DNA of 64,000 bases. It comes from Rhizobium binae. Its GTDB lineage: Bacteria; Pseudomonadota; Alphaproteobacteria; Rhizobiales; Rhizobiaceae. The notes beneath the pieces are model-generated. The model saw only the letters and a program-made list of their open reading frames with translations. It searched no databases and was not told where the DNA came from. The stretch covers positions 3,351,001-3,415,000 of the forward strand of contig NZ_CP071604.1 in the NCBI RefSeq assembly GCF_017357225.1, written 5' to 3'. The first letter of the stretch is position 1, and each line of letters starts with the position of its first letter. This document shows, piece after piece, positions 32,465 to 63,782 of the stretch. The position numbers and the translations under genes were made by a program.

Positions 32465-32541
32465 GCACCCGTAGCTCAGCTGGATAGAGTGTTGGATTCC
32501 GATTCCAAAGGTCACAGGTTCGAATCCTGTCGGGTGCGCCA
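32465..32541 (+). tRNA. tRNA-Arg (anticodon CCG)
   Basis: A complete 77-base cloverleaf: acceptor GCACCCG pairs with CGGGTGC, anticodon stem TTGGA/TCCAA encloses TTCCGAT, so the anticodon is CCG at 32499-32501, and the T arm is ACAGG-TTCGAAT-CCTGT. The discriminator G and CCA end are encoded. A T6 run follows directly. It decodes CGG. The genes to its right look accessory, and tRNA-Arg genes are common integration sites, but I found no second copy of its 3' end in the window. Confidence 0.95.
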
Positions 32542-52121: not shown

Positions 52122-52991
52122 TCACGCTTGCGCAAAGACCCAATCGGAAAAGGCGCGCATGGCCGGGGTGACCGGCCGTGACTGCAGGCGTGTCAGCCAG
52201 TAGCTTCCGAGTGATATGGTGGCGGCAAAGGGCTGAACGATCGCACCTGACGAGAGCAGCCTGGAGAACATCGAAGGCGGCGCCATCGCGACGCCGAGTC
52301 CCTGCAGGGCGGCCTCCATCATGGCGATGGAGGAATCGAAGACGATGCCGGCATTGACCTGCGCCGCCGGCGCTACGCCGACGGCGGCAAACCAGGTGCT
52401 CCATTCATCCGCGCGGTAGCTGCGCAGCAGCGTGGCGCCGGCGAGATCGGCAGGCGACCGCAAATCCTCGGCCAGTTCGGAAATGCAGAGGGCCGAGAGC
52501 GGCGCCTCGAACAGGCGCTGCGCCTCGGTGCCGTGCCAGGAGCCGCTGCCGAAGCGGATGGCAAAGTCGAGTCCCTCGGCGGCGGGATCGACGCGGTTGT
52601 TATTGGTGGAAACCCGGACGTCGATGAAGGGGTGCCGGCGCTGGAAATCCGCAAGGCGCGGCAAGAGCCAGCCGACCGCGAAGGTGCCGACGACGCCGAG
52701 GAACAGCAATTCGCGCACCTGGCCGGCCTCGATCCGATCGAGCGTTGTCGCCATCTGGTCGAAGGAGGCGCTTACCGTCGGCAGCAGCGCCTCGCCTTCC
52801 GCGGTGATTTTCAGCCCGCGCGGCAGACGCTGGAATAGCGCGACGCCCAGCCGCTTTTCCAGCGCCTTGACCTGTTGGCTGACGGCCGCCTGGGTGACGC
52901 AGAGCTCGATTGCGGCGCGGGTAAAGCTCAGATGTCGTGCCGAGGCCTCGAAGGCCCGCAGGCCGTTCAGCGGGAGGAAGGGGCGAACCAT
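52122..52991 (-). CDS. ampR: LysR-family regulator, AmpR-type
   Basis: The product has 289 residues, the usual AmpR length. It begins MVRPFLPLNGLRAFEASARHLSFTRAAIEL, the AmpR/GcvA N-terminus, with the helix-turn-helix CVTQAAVSQQVKALEKRLG. It is divergent from a class C beta-lactamase gene across 131 bases, the classical ampR-ampC arrangement. AmpR represses or activates ampC according to the level of muropeptides. The GcvA branch is very similar, so the name rests partly on the neighbour. Confidence 0.8.
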   Translation of the reverse strand: MVRPFLPLNGLRAFEASARHLSFTRAAIELCVTQAAVSQQVKALEKRLGVALFQRLPRGLKITAEGEALLPTVSASFDQMATTLDRIEAGQVRELLFLGVVGTFAVGWLLPRLADFQRRHPFIDVRVSTNNNRVDPAAEGLDFAIRFGSGSWHGTEAQRLFEAPLSALCISELAEDLRSPADLAGATLLRSYRADEWSTWFAAVGVAPAAQVNAGIVFDSSIAMMEAALQGLGVAMAPPSMFSRLLSSGAIVQPFAATISLGSYWLTRLQSRPVTPAMRAFSDWVFAQA

Positions 52992-53122
52992 CGCGCGTTT
53001 CTTAAGCCCTAGAAATTCTTGCAGCTGCTGCGAGATATCATCATTTGCCGTTGGAAAACAACGCCGCTAAACGCCTATTCGGCTGCATTTTGAGCTCATG
53101 CGGCTCCCTGGCGATCTGGAGG

Positions 53123-54283
53123 ATGACTTTGAAAAACCTTGGCATAAAAATTTTGTCGGCTGCTTTGCTCTCGGCATACACTTCAGCAAACAGTTTTGCC
53201 GCCGGCGAGGCGGAAGTACGAGCGATCGCGGATGCGGCGATCAAGCCGATCATGGAAAAATACGCCATTCCGGGGGTGGCCGTCGGCATCACCGTCGGCG
53301 GCCGCGATCACATCTTCACCTATGGCGTCGAATCCAAGGAGACGGGCAGACCGGTGGCGGCGACCACGCTCTTCGAACTGGGCTCGATCAGCAAGACCTT
53401 CACCGCGACGCTGGCCTCCTACGCCGAAGCGACGGGAGACCTCTCTTTGTCCGACCTGGTGGCCAAACATCTTCCCGCGGTGAAGGGAAGGCCGTTCGGT
53501 GATGTCGCGCTGATCGGTCTCGGCACCCATACGGCCGGCGGTTTTCCGCTACAGGTGCCCGATAACCTCAAAAACGAAGGCCAACTGATGGATTATCTTG
53601 CCGCCTGGCGCCCTTCCTACGCGGCGGGAACCCACCGCAGCTATGCCAATCCGAGCATCGGCATGCTCGGCTTCATCACGGCGAAAGCTATGCGCGGCGA
53701 TTTCGCGGATCTGATGGAAGGCAGGCTGTTTCCCGGGCTCGGATTGAGCAGCACCTTCATCAACGTGCCGAAGGCGCGACGGGGCGATTACGCCCAGGGC
53801 TATAAGCGCAGCGGCGAGCCGGCAAGGCTGACGCCGGCCCTGCTTTCCGCCGAGGCTTATGGCGTAAGGTCTACCGCCGGCGACATGATCCGCTTCGTCG
53901 ACGCCAATATGGGCATGGCGAAGCTCGACGGAAAACTGCAGCACGCGATCGACAAGACCCACACCGGTTATTTCAGCGTAGGGGCGATGACCCAGGACCT
54001 GATCTGGGAGCAATATGCCTATCCCGTCCCACTGCAGAGCCTGCTTGACGGCAATTCGGTGGCGATGCTGAAGACCTCCCCGGTCGCGGCGCTGCAGCCG
54101 CCGATGACGCCGCGTGGCGATGTCTGGATCAACAAGACCGGCTCGACCAACGGCTTCGGCGCCTATGTCGCCTTCATTCCCATCAAGCGCGTCGGCATCG
54201 TCATCCTGGCCAACAAAAACTACCCCAACGAGGATCGGGTTGCCGCGGCCTATCGGGTATTGACAGCGCTTGCGGCCGATTGA
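53123..54283 (+). CDS. ampC: Class C beta-lactamase (AmpC)
   Basis: The product has 386 residues. The class C active-site set is complete: SISK at 88-91 with nucleophile Ser88, YAN at 174-176 and KTG at 338-340. The signal peptide is IKILSAALLSAYTSANSFA-AG. The ATG at 53123 touches the GGAGG ribosome site, so the TTG at 53129, six bases further from it, may be the true start. It hydrolyses cephalosporins in the periplasm. Divergent ampR suggests inducible expression. Confidence 0.9.
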   Translation: MTLKNLGIKILSAALLSAYTSANSFAAGEAEVRAIADAAIKPIMEKYAIPGVAVGITVGGRDHIFTYGVESKETGRPVAATTLFELGSISKTFTATLASYAEATGDLSLSDLVAKHLPAVKGRPFGDVALIGLGTHTAGGFPLQVPDNLKNEGQLMDYLAAWRPSYAAGTHRSYANPSIGMLGFITAKAMRGDFADLMEGRLFPGLGLSSTFINVPKARRGDYAQGYKRSGEPARLTPALLSAEAYGVRSTAGDMIRFVDANMGMAKLDGKLQHAIDKTHTGYFSVGAMTQDLIWEQYAYPVPLQSLLDGNSVAMLKTSPVAALQPPMTPRGDVWINKTGSTNGFGAYVAFIPIKRVGIVILANKNYPNEDRVAAAYRVLTALAAD

Positions 54284-54645: not shown

Positions 54646-55599
54646 GTGAAAAGCGTATTGATATCTGGCGGAGCAGGATTCATCGGTTCGCATCTATGCG
54701 ACCGGCTTTTGCTTAGGAATGACGTTCACAAGCTCGTCGTTGTTGACAATCTCTGGACAGGACTTTTCGAGAATATTTCGCACATCAGGGATCCCCGCTT
54801 TCACTTCGTGAAATCGGACGTCGAGACCCTGCAGACGTCGGAAAAATTCGACGAGATCTATCATCTCGCCTCCCCGGCATCACCGCCCTGGTACATGAAG
54901 GAACCGAAGCGGACGATTTCGGCGAACCTGCTTGGCGCCTTCCGGCTTCTCGACCTGCTGAAGAAGGGCGGGCGCTTCGGTTACACCTCCTCCTCGGAAA
55001 TCTACGGAGACCCTCTGGTATCGCCGCAGCCGGAAACCTACAAGGGCCAGGTCGACTGTACCGGGCCGCGCTCCTCCTATGACGAGAGCAAGAGATGCAC
55101 GGAAGCGCTGCTGTTCGAGATGCAGCGCACCAAGGGGCTGAACGTCAAGGTTATCCGCCCCTTCAATATCTACGGTCCCCGCACCCGGCCCGATGACGGC
55201 CGCGCCGTCTCCAACTTCGTCACCCAGGCGCTTTCGGGCCGCCCGATCACCGTGTTCGGCGATGGCAAGCAGTCGCGCAGCTGGGGCTATGTCGACGACA
55301 TCGTCGACGGTTTTGCGCGTTATTTCTGGATCAACGAGACCGACTACAAGGGGCCCCTGAACATCGGCAACGACCGAGAGATCACCGTTCTCGAAGTCGC
55401 GAAATACGTTTCGAAGCTGATCGGCGGCGTGCCGATCGTCTTCGAGCCATCGCCGCCGCAGGATCCCACCAACAGGCGGCCGGACCTGACGAGAGCCTAC
55501 GCCGTCATGCCCGAGTGGTCGTGCAAGGTCAGCTACGAACAGGGCGTGGCGATGACGCTCGACTGGTTCAGAGAAAAGATAAAGGTGGGGGCGGCCTGA
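54646..55599 (+). CDS. UDP-glucuronate decarboxylase-like SDR (UDP-xylose synthase type)
   Basis: The product has 317 residues from GTG 54646, with AGAGG upstream. It is an extended SDR with GGAGFIGSH (8-16), the catalytic Tyr145 and Lys149 in YDESK, and the UXS-type stretches SSSEIYGDP and FNIYGPRTRPDDGRAVSNF. The expected reaction is UDP-glucuronate to UDP-xylose. As the first gene of the operon it would supply a pentose donor to the glycosyltransferases that follow. dTDP-glucose dehydratase-like activity is less likely from these motifs. Confidence 0.85.
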   Translation: MKSVLISGGAGFIGSHLCDRLLLRNDVHKLVVVDNLWTGLFENISHIRDPRFHFVKSDVETLQTSEKFDEIYHLASPASPPWYMKEPKRTISANLLGAFRLLDLLKKGGRFGYTSSSEIYGDPLVSPQPETYKGQVDCTGPRSSYDESKRCTEALLFEMQRTKGLNVKVIRPFNIYGPRTRPDDGRAVSNFVTQALSGRPITVFGDGKQSRSWGYVDDIVDGFARYFWINETDYKGPLNIGNDREITVLEVAKYVSKLIGGVPIVFEPSPPQDPTNRRPDLTRAYAVMPEWSCKVSYEQGVAMTLDWFREKIKVGAA

Positions 55600-55678: not shown

Positions 55679-56854
55679 ATGCAGGAAATCATTCCGTCCG
55701 ATCTGGCGACTGTCAATTTTCCCGTACCGATACTGTATCTCGATCTCGCATCGCATCAGGACGCCGGCGCCGCGCCGATCTCGGCCGGGCTCGTGGTCTT
55801 TCTCGCCGACGGCCTCCCCGTTGGACAGGCCTATGTCGACAGGCCCGAGGCCGCCGCCGAGCTTGCCGGACGTGTCGTGCGACCGGATACGCTTGCGCAT
55901 GCACGCCAGATCGCCCAGGCGCCTCTTCAAAATCGCGACGTCAGCATTCTGATCTGCACCAAGGATCGGCCGGAAGAGCTGCGCCGGTGCCTCGCCTCGA
56001 TCCCCGAGCAATCGCTGAAGCCGGTCGAGATCATCGTGGTCGACAATGCGTCTTCAGGCGATGCGACCCGCCGGGTCGTCGAAGACGCGGGCGCCACCTA
56101 TGTCCGAGAAGATCGGGTCGGGCTGGATTTTGCCCGCAATGCCGCCATTCGCGCGGCGAAAACCGAATTCGTCGCCTTTACCGATGACGACGTCGTTCTC
56201 CACGAGCGATGGCTGGAGGACCTGATGAAGGCGTTTGACCGGCCGGAGATCGGCTGCGTCACGGGGCTGATCCTGCCCGGTGAGCTCGCAACGCCGGCGC
56301 AATTCATCTTCGAAAAGCACTGGGGTTTCGGCCGCGGTTACATCAGGCAGGATTTCGGTCGGGATTTCTACGACAGCCACAGGCGCTACGGCGCGCCGGT
56401 CTGGACAATCGGCGCCGGCGCAAGCCAGGCCTTCCGCCGCAAGGTATTCGACGAAATCGGCCTGTTCGACGTCCGCCTCGACATGGGTGCGGCCGGCTGC
56501 TCGGGCGACTCTGAATATTGGAACCGGCTCCTGCATCACGGCCACGTCTGCCGCTACGAGCCGACCGCGGTTTCCTGGCACTTTCATCGCAAGGATATGC
56601 AGGGGCTGGCCAGGCAGATCCAGCAATATATGAGCGGCCATATCGCCGCGCTGCTGGTGCAGTATCAGAACACTGGCAACGGCGGCAACCTTCGGCGCAT
56701 CCTCATCTCCTTCCCGAAATATTTTGCCGGCCGGTTGCGTAAACGCCTGCGCAAGGGCGCCACTTCGCACGATTTCTTCCTGAAACAGGAGATGCTCGGC
56801 AGCGTCAACGGCGCACTCTACGTTCTGCGTCGCTGGAAGATGCGCGCATGGTGA
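55679..56854 (+). CDS. GT2 glycosyltransferase with extra N-terminal domain
   Basis: The product has 391 residues. The GT2 catalytic domain begins near residue 88 (DVSILICTKDRPEELRRCLASI) and has the metal-binding acidic triplet at 169-171 (FTDDDV). The GCSGDSEYWNRLLHHGH stretch lies in the acceptor side. The first ~85 residues (VPILYLDLASHQDAG, ISAGLVVFLADGLPVG) form a compact domain I do not recognise. A basic C-terminal segment (FAGRLRKRLRKG) may contact the membrane. Its stop overlaps the start of the 999-residue fusion gene by seven bases. Confidence 0.85.
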   Translation: MQEIIPSDLATVNFPVPILYLDLASHQDAGAAPISAGLVVFLADGLPVGQAYVDRPEAAAELAGRVVRPDTLAHARQIAQAPLQNRDVSILICTKDRPEELRRCLASIPEQSLKPVEIIVVDNASSGDATRRVVEDAGATYVREDRVGLDFARNAAIRAAKTEFVAFTDDDVVLHERWLEDLMKAFDRPEIGCVTGLILPGELATPAQFIFEKHWGFGRGYIRQDFGRDFYDSHRRYGAPVWTIGAGASQAFRRKVFDEIGLFDVRLDMGAAGCSGDSEYWNRLLHHGHVCRYEPTAVSWHFHRKDMQGLARQIQQYMSGHIAALLVQYQNTGNGGNLRRILISFPKYFAGRLRKRLRKGATSHDFFLKQEMLGSVNGALYVLRRWKMRAW

Positions 56855-59847
56855 CAGCTGTGGCGCCCGAAATTTCCTTCCTCATTCCTGCCTACGATGC
56901 AGAGGACACGCTTGCCGAAGCGATTGCCAGCCTGCAGCGGCAGACGAAATCGAACTGGCAGGCAGTGGTGGTCGACGACGGTTCGAGCGACCGAACCTGG
57001 GAGCGGCTTGAGGCGATTGCCGCAGCCGACAGCCGCATTGTCGCCGCCCGCCAGACCAATGCCGGTGCTGCGGCGGCCAGAAACCATGCCGCCCGCCTGG
57101 CCGCAGCCCGCCTGCTCTGCATGCTCGATGCCGACGACTGGCTGCACCCGACCTTCATCGAAACCATGCTGCCAGTGGCCGAGGATAGATCACCGCCCAC
57201 CATCGCTTATTGCTCCTACCGCCGGGTCGCCCCGGACGGCCGGCTGATGCCGGTGGAGCAGGCGCCGGTGCTTGCCGGCGATGCCGCCAGGCGCGAATTC
57301 TCGTCCTTTTGCGCGCTCGCCATTCACACGGTGGTTTTTCCCAAAAGCCTTTTCGAGCAGGTCGGCGGCATGGATGAGAGCCTGCAGACTTGCGAGGAAT
57401 GGGATCTCTGGCTGCGCATGGCCTTTGCAGGCGCAGAATTTCGCCGTGTCGACGCCTGCCTGGCTTTCTATCGCGTGAAGTCGGGCTCGCTTTCCGGCGA
57501 TCCGACGAAACTGGTGCGTGACGCCATTTGCGTGACAACGAAAGCCGAGGCGCTGCGCCGGCAGCACGGCTTGCCGGCCGAGGGGCCGGAAACCGGCTGG
57601 ATCACACCCGCCGTCAGCCGATTGCGCATGCTCGTCTGGGTCGTCGCCGCTAAGCACGATCCGAACCTGGATATACAAGCCCTTGCCGCCCTGCTGCCCG
57701 ACATGCCGGATGCAGCAGGCTATGAGAGCTTTTTTGCCGACGTGATACTGCACGGCCTGCAGACCGGCCTCCTGCGCGACCGGGCCGACGATCTCATCGA
57801 TGCGCCCGAGCAGTGGTGGCCGACTATCCATCCACTCGTCCAGCTGATCGAGCGTCATTCCCTGCCCGGCACCGGCCGCAAGATCCTCGAAGCCGCCGCC
57901 TGGCAGCTCTCCGCCGGCAACCTTCGGCGATCCTTCACCCTCGGCGCGATCCAGGTGGTGAGCGTCGAGCTCGGCGCCCTTTCCAGGATCGCCCGGGCCG
58001 AGCAGGCCGATACGCTGATCATGCACGGCTTTTCCGGCGACGAGCATATCGGCACCTTCGTAGGGCCACTCTGGGGTGACCTCTCGATCCGGGCGCAAAT
58101 CCGGCTGATCATGCAGGAGATGCAGGCGGGAGACCATCTCGAGCAACCGCGCACGCTCACCTATGCCGCTGCCTGGACAAGGGAGGCGCTGCGCGGCTAC
58201 CGAACCTTCGGCGGCCTCATCCTCCGCAGCGGCCGGCGGCGCGGGCGCCTCGAAAAACTTCTGGTGCGGACCGGCCGCAATGCCGTGCTTGCCGGAGCGC
58301 CCGGCGACCGACAGGATAATGACGCCCGGCTCTCCGCTCTCCTGCGCAATCTCGAAGGAGGCCTGCCGCCGGTGCGACATGCAGCCGCCGCGGCGCCGGC
58401 GAAGGAAGAGCGGGCTCCCCAGCCTCAGTCGGCAGAAGACTATTGGGAGCAAATTTTCGAACGGCCGGACCCGTGGAACTACCTCTCGATCTACGAGCAG
58501 GTCAAATATGCGCAGACATTGAGCCTGATCCCGCAGGGGACCGAAACGGCCCTGGAACTTGCCTGCGCCGAGGGGATATTCACCGAGAAGCTGGCGCGCC
58601 AGGTCAGCCGGGTGACGGCCACCGATATTTCGCAGCGGGCGATCAACAGGGCGGCCACACGTTGCCGCGATCTCTCCAGTGTCGAATTCCGGGTTCTCGA
58701 CTTCGTCAGACAACAGCTCCCACCCGATCAGGATCTCATCCTCTGCTGCGAAGTGCTTTATTACATGAAGGATGAGGAGATGCTTGCGGGTGTTTGCCGC
58801 AAGATGGCGACGGCGCTGAAGCCGGGGGGCTGCCTGATCACCGCGCATGCGCATCTGCGTTGCGACGAGCCCGACCGAACAGGTTTCGATTGGGGCCATC
58901 CTTTCGGGGTCGGGACGATCAGACGGGTTCTGGCCGAACAGGCGGGGCTTGTCCTCGAAGAGACGATCGATACCGCGCTTTACGCCATCCACCGCTTCCG
59001 CAAAGCCACTGTGGCCGCTCCCGTCCTGCGGGTCGAGACGCATGGGACGCCGATGGACGTCGATGTGGCAAAGCACATCATCTCAGGACCGACGGGCATC
59101 GCGCGGGAGGCGGCATGGGCAACCGAGGTGACGACCTCGATCCCTATCCTGATGTATCACCGGATCGCCGAGGACGGCCCCGCCGCGCTGCGGCGTTTCC
59201 GCACGCTGCCGGAGACGTTCCGCAAGCAGATGCAATTCCTGCGCCGGCACGGCTATTACGCCGTGACGGCGCCGACACTCGCCAATCTCTTGCGGGGCGG
59301 CAAGCCGATTCAGGGCCGGCCGGTCATGTTGACCTTCGACGACGCCTACCTGGATTTCCGCACCAACGCCTTCCCGATCCTGGCCGAGAATGATTTCAGC
59401 GCTGACGTCTTCGTCGTCACCGACAAGGTCGGCGGCCGCTCGGACTGGGATTGCGCCTATGGCGAGCCGGCAGCGCTGATGGCGTGGCCGGATATTCAGG
59501 AACTGCAGCAGAAGGGCATCAGCTTCGGCTCCCATCTCGCCTCCCACACGCCGGCGAGCGCGATGGCAAACGATGCCTTGCTCGCTGAAGCCCTGCGGTC
59601 GCGCCATGCCCTGGAAAGCCGGCTAGGCGCCCCCGTGGTTTCGATCGCACTGCCCTACGGCGCCACCGACTTCAGAGTGCCGGGCATTCTTTCCCTTGCC
59701 GGCTACACGACCGGCTTCACCACACGCGCCGCGACAGCCACCTTTTCCGACAAAGCCTTCAGCCTGCCGCGCCTCGAAGTCCGCGGCGACAGTCCGCTTG
59801 AAGCCTTCCCCGCATTGATGGGCCTGCCCGGAGCCTTTATCGGATGA
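56848..59847 (+). CDS. Trifunctional fusion: GT2 glycosyltransferase, NodS-like methyltransferase, NodB-like polysaccharide deacetylase
   Basis: The product has 999 residues with three catalytic modules. Residues 1-240: GT2 domain (ISFLIPAYDAEDTLAEAI, DDGSSD, DADDW at 94-98). Residues 250-515: helical region of unknown role ending in an Ala/Pro linker. Residues 532-725: SAM methyltransferase of NodS type (WEQIFERPDPWNYLSIYEQ, LELACAEGIF for cofactor, CCEVLYYM). Residues 765-999: polysaccharide deacetylase with ILMYHRI, TFDDAY (Asp831 and Asp832) and the metal histidines His896 and His900 in SHLASH. All key residues are present, so each module looks active. Overlaps with both neighbours show translational coupling. 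The likely role is to add a sugar and then N-methylate and deacetylate an amino sugar; this is inference. Confidence 0.9.
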   Translation: MVTAVAPEISFLIPAYDAEDTLAEAIASLQRQTKSNWQAVVVDDGSSDRTWERLEAIAAADSRIVAARQTNAGAAAARNHAARLAAARLLCMLDADDWLHPTFIETMLPVAEDRSPPTIAYCSYRRVAPDGRLMPVEQAPVLAGDAARREFSSFCALAIHTVVFPKSLFEQVGGMDESLQTCEEWDLWLRMAFAGAEFRRVDACLAFYRVKSGSLSGDPTKLVRDAICVTTKAEALRRQHGLPAEGPETGWITPAVSRLRMLVWVVAAKHDPNLDIQALAALLPDMPDAAGYESFFADVILHGLQTGLLRDRADDLIDAPEQWWPTIHPLVQLIERHSLPGTGRKILEAAAWQLSAGNLRRSFTLGAIQVVSVELGALSRIARAEQADTLIMHGFSGDEHIGTFVGPLWGDLSIRAQIRLIMQEMQAGDHLEQPRTLTYAAAWTREALRGYRTFGGLILRSGRRRGRLEKLLVRTGRNAVLAGAPGDRQDNDARLSALLRNLEGGLPPVRHAAAAAPAKEERAPQPQSAEDYWEQIFERPDPWNYLSIYEQVKYAQTLSLIPQGTETALELACAEGIFTEKLARQVSRVTATDISQRAINRAATRCRDLSSVEFRVLDFVRQQLPPDQDLILCCEVLYYMKDEEMLAGVCRKMATALKPGGCLITAHAHLRCDEPDRTGFDWGHPFGVGTIRRVLAEQAGLVLEETIDTALYAIHRFRKATVAAPVLRVETHGTPMDVDVAKHIISGPTGIAREAAWATEVTTSIPILMYHRIAEDGPAALRRFRTLPETFRKQMQFLRRHGYYAVTAPTLANLLRGGKPIQGRPVMLTFDDAYLDFRTNAFPILAENDFSADVFVVTDKVGGRSDWDCAYGEPAALMAWPDIQELQQKGISFGSHLASHTPASAMANDALLAEALRSRHALESRLGAPVVSIALPYGATDFRVPGILSLAGYTTGFTTRAATATFSDKAFSLPRLEVRGDSPLEAFPALMGLPGAFIG

Positions 59848-60926
59848 CAATCGTCGGCACCGCAGCGACCCCACTGATCACCGTCGTCATCCCGGCCTAC
59901 AACGCCGAAAAGACGCTTCTCGAAACGTTGCAAAGCGTCTCGAACCAAACCTACGAAAAGCTCGAAATCCTTGTGGTCGATGACGGATCGCGGGACGGCA
60001 CCTTCGCGCTTGCGAGCGATTATAGCCTCACCGACCGCCGTGTCCGGGTCCTCCGGCAAGCCAATGGCGGCGTTGCCCGTGCCCGCAATCACGGCATCGG
60101 CGAGGCACGGGGCGTCTATGTGGCGCCTGTCGACGCCGACGACATATGGCATCCCGAGAAGATCGAGCGTCAACTGCAGTCGCTGCGAAAATTTCCCGGC
60201 GGCCATGGCGTCGCCTATAACTGGTATGCGGCCATCGACGAAAACGGCGTCGTTTTCGGCCATTCACGTCCGGTGCTGCATGAAGGCAACGTCTTCGAAC
60301 CGCTGCTGCGGGAAAACTTCATCGGCAATGGCAGCACGCCGCTGATGCCGCGCACCGAGGTTCTGCGCTGCGGCGGCTACGACGCCGGCCTGCGCGACAG
60401 CGGCGCCGAGGGCTGCGAGGATCTGAAGCTCTATCTCGCCTTGGCCGAGAGCCTGCCCTTTGCGCTGGTTCCCGATTTCCTCACCGGTTATCGCTTCACC
60501 CGGGGGAACATGTCGAGCAACGCCTATCGGATGCTGAAATCCCATGCCCTGGTGATGGCGCCGCTCATCGAGCGCTACCCGCATCTGAGACGCGATATCC
60601 AGACCGCCAAGTTCAACACGACGCACTGGTATTTCAACAAAGCCCTTGCAAACCGCGATTATGCCCAGGTCAAAAAGCTGGCGCCGATGATGGCGATGCA
60701 ATATGGCCCGCAGTTGATCGTCCATGGCCTGCGGCAGAGCCTTCGTCTGGCAAAACGCTATGGCGTGCGGCTTGCCAGACAGCTCCTGCGAAAGTCTTCG
60801 GACCGATCGAAGACCCGCTTTGCGGGTGCCCTCGTTCCGCAAGCCGGCACGCCCTACAGCGATCGTTTCATGCGGCTCGGAAGCGTGCTCAGCCCGACAT
60901 CATCGCGGATGGCCGACAATGAATAG
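59844..60926 (+). CDS. GT2 glycosyltransferase
   Basis: The product has 360 residues. The GT2 domain covers about 10-230: ITVVIPAYNAEKTLLETLQSV, VVDDGSRDGT, DADD at 97-100, and GCEDLKLYLAL as the acceptor-binding ED motif. The C-terminal ~100 residues are basic and helical. The ATG overlaps the stop of the fusion gene by four bases. Donor and acceptor are not known. It resembles the GT2 encoded at 62667, so the two may be paralogues that act in sequence. Confidence 0.9.
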   Translation: MTIVGTAATPLITVVIPAYNAEKTLLETLQSVSNQTYEKLEILVVDDGSRDGTFALASDYSLTDRRVRVLRQANGGVARARNHGIGEARGVYVAPVDADDIWHPEKIERQLQSLRKFPGGHGVAYNWYAAIDENGVVFGHSRPVLHEGNVFEPLLRENFIGNGSTPLMPRTEVLRCGGYDAGLRDSGAEGCEDLKLYLALAESLPFALVPDFLTGYRFTRGNMSSNAYRMLKSHALVMAPLIERYPHLRRDIQTAKFNTTHWYFNKALANRDYAQVKKLAPMMAMQYGPQLIVHGLRQSLRLAKRYGVRLARQLLRKSSDRSKTRFAGALVPQAGTPYSDRFMRLGSVLSPTSSRMADNE

Positions 60927-62670
60927 GTTTCGGAAATCTGCCTCCCGGCCGGCCGGCGCCTTCAACATGGTGATTGCGGCCCGCTACCGCGATCTTCTGC
61001 AGCTCGTGCCGGCGCTGCGGTTGAAGATGGCGGTGATGATCATCCTCGGCATTCTCACCGGGTTTTCGGAGATGGTCGGCATCACCTTTCTGGTGAGCCT
61101 CGTTTTTGTTCTCGGGCAGCAGGGCCCGGGTTCCCCCTCCACCGTTGCCGGGCTTCCGGCGATTTTCGGCGGCATCGACCTCAGTCTTTCCAAACCGGTG
61201 CTGATCGGTATCCTCATCGCCTCCATCCTGCTGCGCATCCTTCTCGGATTCGTCAACTCGCTGATCACAAGCACGATCAACCACAAGATCAGCGATCGCA
61301 TGCGCGACCGCCTCTACGCCAAGATCCTGACCATCCCGTTCCAGCGCTTTCAGCACTATGAGCGCAGCGATCTGATGAATGTGATCGCCACCGAAGCCTA
61401 TGCGGTATCCTCGGCACATGCGAGCCTCGTGCGTCTAGGTGTCAATTTCGGCACGATCGTCATCTTCGGTATCGGCATGCTTGTCATGGCCTGGCCGATC
61501 GCCTTGCTGGGCCTTGTCTTCGGCTTTGTCCACAACTTCGCCTTGGGGTCCTTTGCCGGCGCCTATCGGCGCCTTGGCGCTTCGGCGCTGGCCGCCGTCG
61601 AAGCCTTGACGCAGCTGAGCTGGACCACGCTGCAGACATTGAAAGCGGTCAAAAGCTTCGGCCTCGAGCAGCGCCACCAGCAGCTCTTCGCAACACTTTC
61701 CAGCGAAGTTGGCCGGACCTGGCGCCACTCGGACTGGATGGGCGCGGCGACCTCGCTGTTGAGCGAGATCCTGACGTTCGGGATCATCCTGACGATCATC
61801 CTGTCCTCGGAATTCCTGCCGGTGGATTTCAAGGCAGCACTTTCGGCGACCATCCTTCTTTATAGGCTTCAACCGCATATCAAGGGATTCGACTCCCAGA
61901 TCCTGCGCCTTTACGAGATGGAAGCGTCGCTGCAGAACGTGCTGGCTCTGCTTTCCGAAAAGGACGACGCCAAGCAGGCCGCGCAAGGCGTGCCGGTCGC
62001 CCGCCTGGCTGAAGCCATCGTCTTCCACGACGTCTCCTTCACCTATGAACAGGCGAACGCGCCGGCCGTTCAAAACCTCAACTTCTCGATCAAGGCAGGC
62101 GAAACGACGGCTCTGACCGGGCCAAGCGGCTCCGGCAAGACGACAATCCTGAACATGATCCTCGATCTCACCCGGCCGACGCGAGGTCGGATCACGATCG
62201 ACGGCAAGGATCTCGCCGATGTCGACCGCGCGAGCTGGCTGCACCTGCTGTCGGTGTCGGGCCAGGATGTCGAACTGATGGAGGGCACGGTCTTCGACAA
62301 CATCCGCTTCCGTCGCGATATCTCCGACGAGGACGTCAGGTGGGCCGCCGATGTCGCCTGCGCGACCGAATTCATCGAAAATCTGCCGGAAGGCTTCGAC
62401 GAATGGCTGGGCGACGAAGCGGTGCGGCTTTCAGGCGGACAGCGCCAGCGCATCGGTCTGGCGCGCGCGCTGGCCGGCCGGCCGCAGATCCTGCTCCTGG
62501 ACGAGGCCACCAGCGCGCTCGATGAAAACACCGAAATGCGCGTGTTTTCGGCAATCAAGGAAGATGCCGGCCGAACGCTGATCGTCGTCAGCCATCGCCC
62601 TGCGGTCGCCAGATTGATGAAGAACCAGATCGATCTTCGCCCGCCAACGCTCGCATCCAAACTCGGGTGA
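60919..62670 (+). CDS. ABC exporter, fused membrane and ATPase domains (MsbA/lipid or glycan type)
   Basis: The product has 583 residues from ATG 60919, which overlaps the previous gene by eight bases. Six membrane helices lie within about 30-330, followed by an ATPase with Walker A GPSGSGKT (401-408), signature LSGGQ (504-508), Walker B LLLDEATSALD (525-535) and the switch His in VSHRPA. Half-transporters of this kind work as homodimers and flip lipid-linked glycans or export polysaccharide precursors. Its place inside a glycosyltransferase operon suggests export of the glycan made there. Confidence 0.9.
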   Translation: MNRFRKSASRPAGAFNMVIAARYRDLLQLVPALRLKMAVMIILGILTGFSEMVGITFLVSLVFVLGQQGPGSPSTVAGLPAIFGGIDLSLSKPVLIGILIASILLRILLGFVNSLITSTINHKISDRMRDRLYAKILTIPFQRFQHYERSDLMNVIATEAYAVSSAHASLVRLGVNFGTIVIFGIGMLVMAWPIALLGLVFGFVHNFALGSFAGAYRRLGASALAAVEALTQLSWTTLQTLKAVKSFGLEQRHQQLFATLSSEVGRTWRHSDWMGAATSLLSEILTFGIILTIILSSEFLPVDFKAALSATILLYRLQPHIKGFDSQILRLYEMEASLQNVLALLSEKDDAKQAAQGVPVARLAEAIVFHDVSFTYEQANAPAVQNLNFSIKAGETTALTGPSGSGKTTILNMILDLTRPTRGRITIDGKDLADVDRASWLHLLSVSGQDVELMEGTVFDNIRFRRDISDEDVRWAADVACATEFIENLPEGFDEWLGDEAVRLSGGQRQRIGLARALAGRPQILLLDEATSALDENTEMRVFSAIKEDAGRTLIVVSHRPAVARLMKNQIDLRPPTLASKLG

Positions 62671-63782
62671 CGGCGATGGAGAGGTCGAGCACGTCGGAGA
62701 TTCTGGTGGCGGTGGTGATCCCCGCCTACAATGCCAGCGACTATATTGCCCAGACGTTTCGCTCCGTCATCGATCAGACCCACAAGGCGTTGGAGATCAT
62801 TGTCGTCGACGATGGCTCGACCGACGAGACGGCTTCCATCTGCCGCCGCTTCGCCGCCGCCGACCCGAGGATCCAGCTTCTGTCGACGGAAAACCACGGC
62901 GTCGCCGCGGCGCGTAATATCGGGATCGCAGCGTCGAAGGCCAGCTATCTCGCCTTCCTGGATGCGGACGATCTCTGGCATACGACGTATATCGAAAGAA
63001 TGCTGTCGGCGCTCCACCCGCTGCCCGAGGCCTGGGGTGCGGTCTATGCCCTTCACCGTTTCGTCGATTCCGAGGGATATTGCACGCGGTCCGGCTCGTC
63101 GCTCAGCGCCCGGGAATCCATTCTCATTCGCCATCTCGTCTTCCGCTTCGTCGGCAATGGCAGCGGCTTCATGGTCCGCCGGACCGTCATAGACAAGATC
63201 GGCGGCTACGATCCGACCTATGCCAATCAGGGTATCGGCGGATGCGAAGACTTCGACTTCGAACTCCGCACAGCCGAGCATTTCAAGATCGAGGCGGTGC
63301 CACTCGGCCTGGTGGGCTATCGCGTTCATGCCGCGGCCATGTCTGCCGACAGATCCCGAATGGCGCAATCGCTTCTGGCTGTCTATGAGCGATGCGTCGC
63401 CCGCAATCCGCAGCTTCCCGCTTTCGTCGTCAGCTGCGCCCGCGCCTCGGCCCACCTCTATGCATTCTCAAAATTTGCGGCTTCGAAAGATTGGCGCAGC
63501 GCCGCGGTCTCGCTCAAACACGTCTATCGTCATAGTCCATGGCTTGCTGCCAGCGTCATAACCAAACTGATCTTTTCAAAAGCCGCCAGAGCCGCAAACA
63601 GGGCGTTGTCCAAAGCCCGGCCGTCCAGGCGGCAGCGGACAGATTTCAAGAAATTCGAGGAAATAGATCCTGTTACGCCGCTGGTTGGCGGATGGTCCCG
63701 TTTCCGAACCAAGGCCTTGTTCCGCCGCTTGTCGGAGATTGACCGTTGTGACGCAGATTGCGCTGCGCTCTCGAAGAGATAG
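62667..63782 (+). CDS. GT2 glycosyltransferase
   Basis: The product has 371 residues from GTG 62667, which overlaps the TGA of the exporter gene; ATG 62676 is an alternative three codons later. The GT2 domain shows AVVIPAYNASDYIAQTFRSV, VVDDGSTDET, DADD at 99-102 and GCEDFDFELR. The C-terminal third is basic (RAANRALSKARPSRRQR). It is the last gene seen in the operon. No polymerase or flippase of the Wzy/Wzx kind is found up to the window end. Confidence 0.9.
   Translation: MTAMERSSTSEILVAVVIPAYNASDYIAQTFRSVIDQTHKALEIIVVDDGSTDETASICRRFAAADPRIQLLSTENHGVAAARNIGIAASKASYLAFLDADDLWHTTYIERMLSALHPLPEAWGAVYALHRFVDSEGYCTRSGSSLSARESILIRHLVFRFVGNGSGFMVRRTVIDKIGGYDPTYANQGIGGCEDFDFELRTAEHFKIEAVPLGLVGYRVHAAAMSADRSRMAQSLLAVYERCVARNPQLPAFVVSCARASAHLYAFSKFAASKDWRSAAVSLKHVYRHSPWLAASVITKLIFSKAARAANRALSKARPSRRQRTDFKKFEEIDPVTPLVGGWSRFRTKALFRRLSEIDRCDADCAALSKR

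Follow-up and report, generated by a model that had tools for sequence, protein, structure and literature searches.

Several steps of glycan synthesis can be united in one polypeptide, as exemplified by KfoC, which carries two glycosyltransferases (GTs) in a single chain; we know of no deacetylase or methyltransferase (MT) in multi-domain glycan enzymes of the KfoC type. The poly-GlcNAc deacetylases PgaB and IcaB are exported enzymes, and NodB, which is cytosolic, carries out in principle the same deacetylation step as the one discussed below. Here we describe a 999-residue protein which, unlike the KfoC-type enzymes, has a GT, an MT and a deacetylase in the same chain. It is encoded by an open reading frame (ORF) with an ATG start at 56848..59847, on the forward strand, in a 64,000-nucleotide stretch of Rhizobium binae DNA (hereafter the window, positions 3351001-3415000 of the 4.5-Mb contig C1, NZ_CP071604.1, of a 7.06-Mb genome). 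We think that the protein most likely transfers an amino sugar of an exported glycan, removes the N-acetyl group and N-methylates the amine, and assign to this reading a probability of about 0.6. The GT module, of family GT2, would extend a growing oligosaccharide, probably carried on a lipid, by one sugar, which is most likely N-acetylated; the deacetylase module, of family CE4, would take the acetyl group off the nitrogen of that sugar, and the NodS-type MT module would methylate the freed amine using S-adenosylmethionine (SAM). The preference for N- over O-methylation, the identity of the sugar, the lipid carrier, the cytosolic location and the order of the steps are what we infer from the evidence presented below. 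The same three steps had been proposed in a sequence-only reading of this DNA; the proposal stands as the best-supported one and gains support from the genome context, but its N-acetylhexosamine donor and its acceptor are not fixed by the sequence.

Three Pfam families match the protein, all above their cut-offs: Glycos_transf_2 (PF00535, 96 bits) at residues 10-134, NodS (PF05401, 83 bits against a gathering cut-off of 24) at residues 531-698, and Polysacc_deac_1 (PF01522, 64.7 bits) at residues 822-955. The GT2 module extends over residues 1-240 (56848..57567), the MT module over residues 531-745 (58438..59082) and the CE4 module over residues 760-999 (59125..59844), all on the forward strand. 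The ORF call and the Pfam matches bear out the earlier description of a single 999-residue ORF carrying three modules, and its motifs lie where it had placed them: DADDW at 94, DPWNY at 541, LELACAEG at 569, D831 and D832 within TFDDAY (from 829), and H896 and H900 within SHLASH (from 895). It had also reported an unknown stretch of 280 residues between GT and MT. Such a stretch exists, but it is about 290 residues long (residues 241-530, 57568..58437, forward strand); it lacks a recognised fold, with no Pfam match at E<=0.1 and no PDB match at E<=1 for the window protein. A relationship of this middle region to the N-terminal prefix of GT_A, the GT encoded upstream, was considered and dropped; profile comparison gave a probability of 0.2-0.4%. 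The highest 19-residue hydropathy value of the window protein, 1.37, falls short of what a membrane span would require, which points to a probable cytosolic location.

A homologue search identified 238 relatives, the best 120 of which are listed, and the homologue counts given here rest on those 120. Region profiles derived from an alignment match all 120 in the case of the GT, MT and deacetylase modules, and 119 in the case of the middle region. In the alignment, which consists of 62 relatives picked from the 120 (32-90% identity) and the window protein (n=63), residues D94, D97, E183, E570, G576, D593, D831, D832, H896 and H900 are unchanged in all 63 sequences, and D43 (59/63), D44 (62/63) and D96 (62/63) are nearly invariant. 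The 47 far relatives have mean identities of 39.1% in the GT, 48.5% in the MT and 45.9% in the deacetylase module, and of 16% in the middle region, which is the fastest-evolving part of the protein and has one invariant residue, W264. Judged from this conservation, the fusion is not a chance product. Many relatives bear the NCBI name 'trifunctional glycosyltransferase/class I SAM-dependent methyltransferase/polysaccharide deacetylase', thus the three-module architecture is already known to databases. The window protein belongs to this group by its module order and by similarity over the full length: P0002, which carries the trifunctional name, is 99% identical over the full length, P0005 and P0011 are 90% and 79% identical. 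The order GT-MT-deacetylase, which had been called unusual, is typical of its own protein family. The fusion is not rare and already has a name at NCBI; no experimental study of the protein or of its relatives was found in the open-access papers searched, most subscription journals lying outside the search. Likewise, the partial texts retrieved with R. leguminosarum locus tags contained no study of the fusion gene.

It is instructive to compare the modules one by one with the Nod proteins, because the sequence-only reading had likened them to NodC, NodS and NodB. The MT module deserves the comparison. NodS, whose gene is described as encoding Nod-factor N-methylation (PMC6275314), is its best match in Pfam, NCBIfam and PDB: the NodS structure 3ofj scores 74 bits and the next PDB entry 36.6, the NodS equivalog model NF041650 scores 87.9 bits and the next NCBIfam model 37. 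The profile searches thus agree with the earlier assignment of this part of the chain as an MT. The fusion MT and NodS (PDB 3ofj/3ofk) have in common DPW...E, the E-C-A-G SAM loop and EVLYY, but they are 32-34% identical, fall into separate tree groups, and the fusion MT is joined to a GT and a deacetylase and not encoded in a nod cluster; the genes around it are for GTs, an ABC exporter and a putative UDP-xylose synthase. The GT2 module shares with NodC the GT2 superfamily, but its best NCBIfam model is TuaG (94.8 bits of 400) and the NodC model (TIGR04242) gives 28.5 bits against a cut-off of 550; moreover, 62 of the 63 aligned sequences have no QxxRW in their first 300 residues (one has it). 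Because of the low NodC score, the lack of a membrane segment and the lack of QxxRW we conclude from the sequence that this module is not a NodC-like processive synthase, contrary to what had been proposed. As to the deacetylase, the claim that it has the same fold as NodB is right in that it has the CE4 fold with complete D-D-H-H, of which D, H and H are the metal residues and the other D is the base, but it is not NodB-like, giving no match to the NodB model (TIGR04243, cut-off 240) at E<=1. The true NodB of the same genome (L101, 344.6 bits against the cut-off of 240) scores only 22 bits with the profile of this domain. The best NCBIfam and PDB matches place the module in the PgaB/IcaB branch (6dq3 72.9 bits, PgaB 54.2 bits), with the difference that no membrane span is present and that enzymes of cytosolic type form part of the same chain. 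On these comparisons the Nod labels hold for the MT module alone and fail for the other two.

The NodS-like MT, together with the presence of nodB and the lack of a second NodS-type MT in the host genome (none at E<=1e-10), could be taken to mean that the fusion serves Nod-factor synthesis, replacing NodC, NodS and NodB. We rejected this role on the failed NodC and NodB comparisons and on the gene context. The fusion gene and nodB lie on different contigs, the 4.5-Mb C1 and the 0.3-Mb C5, respectively, the neighbours are not nod genes, and the fusion occurs in cyanobacteria and Sulfitobacter as well, so that such a role is very improbable and close to refuted.

The proposed methylation of a freed amine receives support from the wider MT family. 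In 249 genomes, a PF05401 search at E<=1e-20 found 12 places in 9 genomes, which were either NodS-sized ORFs (five, of 210-240 residues and >250 bits, one with an inner stop) or fusion-type ORFs of 753-1218 residues (seven). A search for the MT in 397 genomes of the phylum at E<=1e-10 found 39 places in 33 genomes; 11 were in large fusion-type ORFs, five were NodS-type ORFs (G023, G035, two in G171, G281), and the remaining 23 served as test loci, for which about 5 kb was fetched on either side of the MT (less for L154). A deacetylase ORF was present at 17 of these 23 free-standing MT loci, belonging to the PIG-L family in 13 and to CE4 in four, and two of the CE4 cases were NodB beside NodS, both above the cut-off. 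The PIG-L ORF, in 12 of 13 instances, lay directly upstream on the same strand and overlapped the MT ORF (longest frame as called). As controls we used the best and, in 18 genomes, also the second-best PF08241 methyltransferase places of the same 22 genomes, which are probably often housekeeping enzymes rather than enzymes of glycan clusters: none of the 40 control loci had a PIG-L or CE4 deacetylase (Fisher test 1e-10; 8e-10 with the two nod loci excluded, 15/21). It must be noted that the PIG-L and polysaccharide deacetylase profiles were home-made, and that the latter sees NodB-type enzymes only weakly (E about 1e-6 to 1e-8), so that some deacetylases may have escaped detection, in the controls as well as in the cases. 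Matches from the cases were used to train the PIG-L profile, but a single-sequence first pass had already given 12/23; the PIG-L test was chosen after one such pair had been noticed in L113, a locus outside the 23. The association of one MT family with two unrelated deacetylase families favours action on the freed amine, and the link between free-standing MT relatives and N-deacetylases, mostly of the unrelated PIG-L fold, is new here.

The PIG-L operons (e.g. L113, L134, L137) resemble the fusion in placing a deacetylase beside a NodS-family MT, but their deacetylase is of PF02585, the two genes are separate and the MTs form their own tree group. In a tree of 57 MT rows the fusions (support 88/98), NodS (100/99) and the PIG-L partners (80/81, with six unlabelled rows) form separate groups, and the deep forks are weak. 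The tree does not support an origin of NodS inside the fusion group, since it separates the two, though with weak deep forks and long branches that meet. The pair of a PIG-L deacetylase and a NodS-family MT is recurrent in the phylum of the window (13 of the 23 sampled loci, L133-L155). In L113 (701-2040) the pair is adjoined by an acyl-CoA dehydrogenase and a GT, and a Calothrix ORF (L099:6191-7432) encodes a NodS-type MT whose first 229 residues look, by eye, like a HAD-type phosphatase.

In the window the fusion gene lies within a set of genes on the forward strand. Upstream is the gene of GT_A (55679..56854), which overlaps the fusion gene by 7 bases, and downstream that of GT_B (59844..60926), which overlaps it by 4 bases. 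They are followed by a gene for a 583-residue ABC exporter with membrane and ATPase parts in one chain (60919..62670; start reset to the ATG at 60919 by comparison with the Rhizobium johnstonii 3841 locus, L031; best models HepA and MsbA, below cut-offs) and by that of GT_C (62667..63782), which overlaps the ABC gene by 4 bases. GT_A, GT_B and GT_C are GT2 enzymes by Pfam. The overlaps of 4-8 bases between all neighbouring pairs suggest that the genes from GT_A to GT_C form one operon. The probable start of the gene set is a UDP-glucuronate decarboxylase-like gene at 54646..55599 (forward strand), 79 bases upstream of GT_A, whose product is closest to UXS1 (structures 259-262 bits, the best over residues 2-313 of 317, next entry 130). 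Because of this resemblance UDP-xylose is probably used by the gene set. GT_A would add a sugar before, and GT_B a sugar after, the one added by the fusion protein, the UDP-xylose synthase would feed the same set, and the ABC exporter would carry the product over the inner membrane. HepA being the best NCBIfam model of the ABC gene, we looked for a link to heterocyst polysaccharide; the literature search gave nothing useful.

The neighbours are conserved. We examined 58 loci, 57 of which have the fusion (L044 has no MT), scoring presence in the fetched stretch and not strict adjacency: GT_A (at least 250 bits) was found in 48, GT_B (at least 150 bits) in 50 and the ABC exporter (at least 150 bits) in 51 of the 57. 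All three were present in the five Calothrix/Dulcicalothrix loci, and among the six Bradyrhizobium loci GT_A was present in five, GT_B and the ABC exporter in all six. One or more of the three are lacking from L037, L103, L104, L105, L157-159, L161 and L163. These loci were found by similarity to the window protein and are biased to Rhizobium; some may repeat one record, as is possible for L162 and L019, whose contigs are equally long, thus the counts are not all independent.

The relationship between the fusion and its neighbours is also apparent from longer chains. Twelve listed homologues exceed 1030 residues; six of them end in GT_B (P0071-P0074, P0078, P0093; 235-263 bits) and another, P0076, has GT_A at its N-terminus (414.5 bits, residues 37-411). 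The gene order GT_A-fusion-GT_B is the same as the module order in the fused chains. These fusions argue strongly that all three proteins work on a single product, and their colinearity with the flanking genes suggests assembly-line building of the glycan. The fusions with neighbour GTs and the recurrence of GT_A, fusion, GT_B and ABC exporter in Rhizobium, Bradyrhizobium and Calothrix, which resembles an assembly line for an exported glycan, are new here, as is the existence of chains with MT and deacetylase but without GT. The latter came from a search limited to chains between 0.55 and 1.75 times as long as the query (about 261-831 residues), in which full-length fusions could not appear. 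Of its 200 matches the best 120 are listed and 115 of these were new: 75 had MT and deacetylase, 36 the middle region, MT and deacetylase, and four a GT as well; 33 of the 115 have no starting Met, which makes them probable fragments. One such locus, L159, a stretch of 15 kb from a sampled genome, was checked for a GT elsewhere: a 741-residue ORF has the middle region, MT and deacetylase and no ORF matches the GT profile, which means that the MT-deacetylase pair can stand without a GT.

It is conceivable that the deacetylase and the MT act on a residue that comes from GT_A or from an initiating enzyme, and that the GT2 module adds a non-acetylated sugar, e.g. xylose. The UDP-xylose synthase at the head of the gene set, the silence of the GT2 sequence about its donor and the MT-deacetylase chain of L159 would all fit; a weak argument against it is that the lasting fusion of the GT with the MT-deacetylase pair suggests action on the same or adjacent residues. 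We regard this arrangement as rather unlikely, but it is a variant of the three-step reading, compatible with N-methylation, and the odds of the two overlap.

Several observations weigh against transfer, deacetylation and N-methylation by the fusion protein. Its donor, acceptor and product are not fixed by the sequence, and the best solved relative of the GT2 module, KfoC chondroitin synthase, does not fix the donor either. The MT module stays below the NodS equivalog cut-off (87.9 against 300 bits; R. etli NodS reaches 342), and the deacetylase module below those of PgaB (TIGR03938, 72 of 321.9 bits) and IcaB (TIGR03933, 46.2 of 248.35 bits). Six of the 23 free-standing MT loci have no deacetylase, and in the two CE4 cases unrelated to nod (L151, L152) the deacetylase is on the strand opposite to the MT. 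Because the PIG-L partners form one tree group, the PIG-L-MT pairs appear to be mostly one old conserved operon type and not 13 independent events, and the count overstates their independence. L105 and L157-159 have none of GT_A, GT_B and the ABC exporter (E<=1e-10), from which it follows that the fusion protein can occur without that set. A 693-residue homologue from Sinorhizobium numidicum (P0064), read by eye, keeps the GT and the deacetylase without the first half of the MT; it also lacks, by eye, part of the middle region. In a Nitrospinae locus (L044, 9719-12800) one ORF has the GT and middle regions and another the deacetylase, and nothing between the two matches the MT; this may be a form of the system that lacks the MT.

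Natural variants that drop parts, such as the last two, could indicate that one module is a relic, i.e. that the deacetylase or the MT has been retained as a fold, with a structural or binding role, and the GT alone is active. This is improbable: the metal and SAM-site residues are unchanged in all 63 aligned sequences, and both modules are better conserved in far relatives than the GT. A more serious alternative is that the deacetylase frees an amine, giving a positively charged glycan, and the MT places its methyl group on the oxygen of a hydroxyl, perhaps capping the chain and so ending it, the two being fused merely through serving the same glycan. Methylated hexoses are common in rhizobial O-antigens according to a review (PMC4153317), and many class I MTs of weaker similarity are O-methyltransferases (BioC and UbiG matches). 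The 'NodS-like' label is also carried by MMAR_2193, an O-methyltransferase whose best PDB relative is 4NEC and not NodS (PMC8730385), and it is partly for this reason that we treat N-methylation as inferred. The fusion MT, however, resembles NodS much more than it does any O-methyltransferase model (87.9 bits, against 37), and N-deacetylases with two unrelated folds are associated with the wider MT family; we therefore consider O-methylation unlikely, slightly more so than action on a residue from GT_A, and prefer N-methylation.

The fusion is patchily distributed. Its profile was found in nine of 297 sampled genomes of the order, that of the window included (E<=1e-60), in two of 292 genomes of the cyanobacterial phylum, including that of the Calothrix centre (E<=1e-80), and in six of 72,556 plasmid records (E<=1e-60), from Rhizobium (two), Sinorhizobium, Mesorhizobium, Gloeothece and Sulfitobacter. 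This patchy spread suggests lateral transfer. The window has a tRNA-Arg (CCG) at 32465, and in R. johnstonii 3841 a tRNA-Arg (CCG) at L031:4592 precedes the fusion gene by 5.3 kb. The 3841 genome paper names an island, RL3627-3670, abutting a tRNA (PMC1557990). Judged from the tRNA-Arg at L031:4592 and from two publications (PMC1557990, PMC3333776), the 3841 copy of the fusion would lie in island RL3627-RL3670. In three Rhizobium loci (L019-L021) the flanking decarboxylase is 88-90% identical to that of the window, and the fusion 60-61%, GT_A 72-76%, GT_B 62-68% and the ABC exporter 70-73%, a drop in the inner genes that looks as if a cassette had been exchanged. In the genome G136 (L100:4654-5444) two short ORFs, which were not joined, have partial matches to the deacetylase domain and are apparently a broken second copy.

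Two other groups of genes are found near the set. In L106 (21171-25191) genes annotated as TfuA-like, YcaO-like and peptide antibiotic resistance protein come after the glycan genes, and downstream of the window (L081:13522-17522), as in many Rhizobium loci, there are ORFs positioned like the TfuA/YcaO genes of L106 (names by position). Within the window, at 52122-54283, a LysR-type regulator gene and a gene for a class C beta-lactamase (NF033085, 541.8 bits, above cut-off) face each other, in an ampR-ampC-like layout.

N-methyl-6-deoxysugars are common in the O-antigens of Rhizobiaceae, as stated in the review cited above (PMC4153317), and a narrow literature search aimed at these sugars found no enzyme for them. 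We tentatively suggest, with less confidence than we have in the three steps themselves, that the orphan enzyme responsible for the N-methyl amino sugars of rhizobial surface polysaccharides may be this fusion, and that it may form the core of an assembly line for an exported glycan, which some cyanobacteria would also have. On this view NodS would represent a single branch within a larger MT family, whose members act with a partner N-deacetylase, of CE4 or PIG-L type, and convert N-acetyl to N-methyl sugars. If this is true, a poorly explained N-methyl feature of rhizobial surfaces becomes testable through a single gene, e.g. in R. johnstonii 3841, NodS gains a plausible wider family, and the rule that a methyltransferase is paired with an N-deacetylase would predict the chemistry of many unannotated gene pairs.

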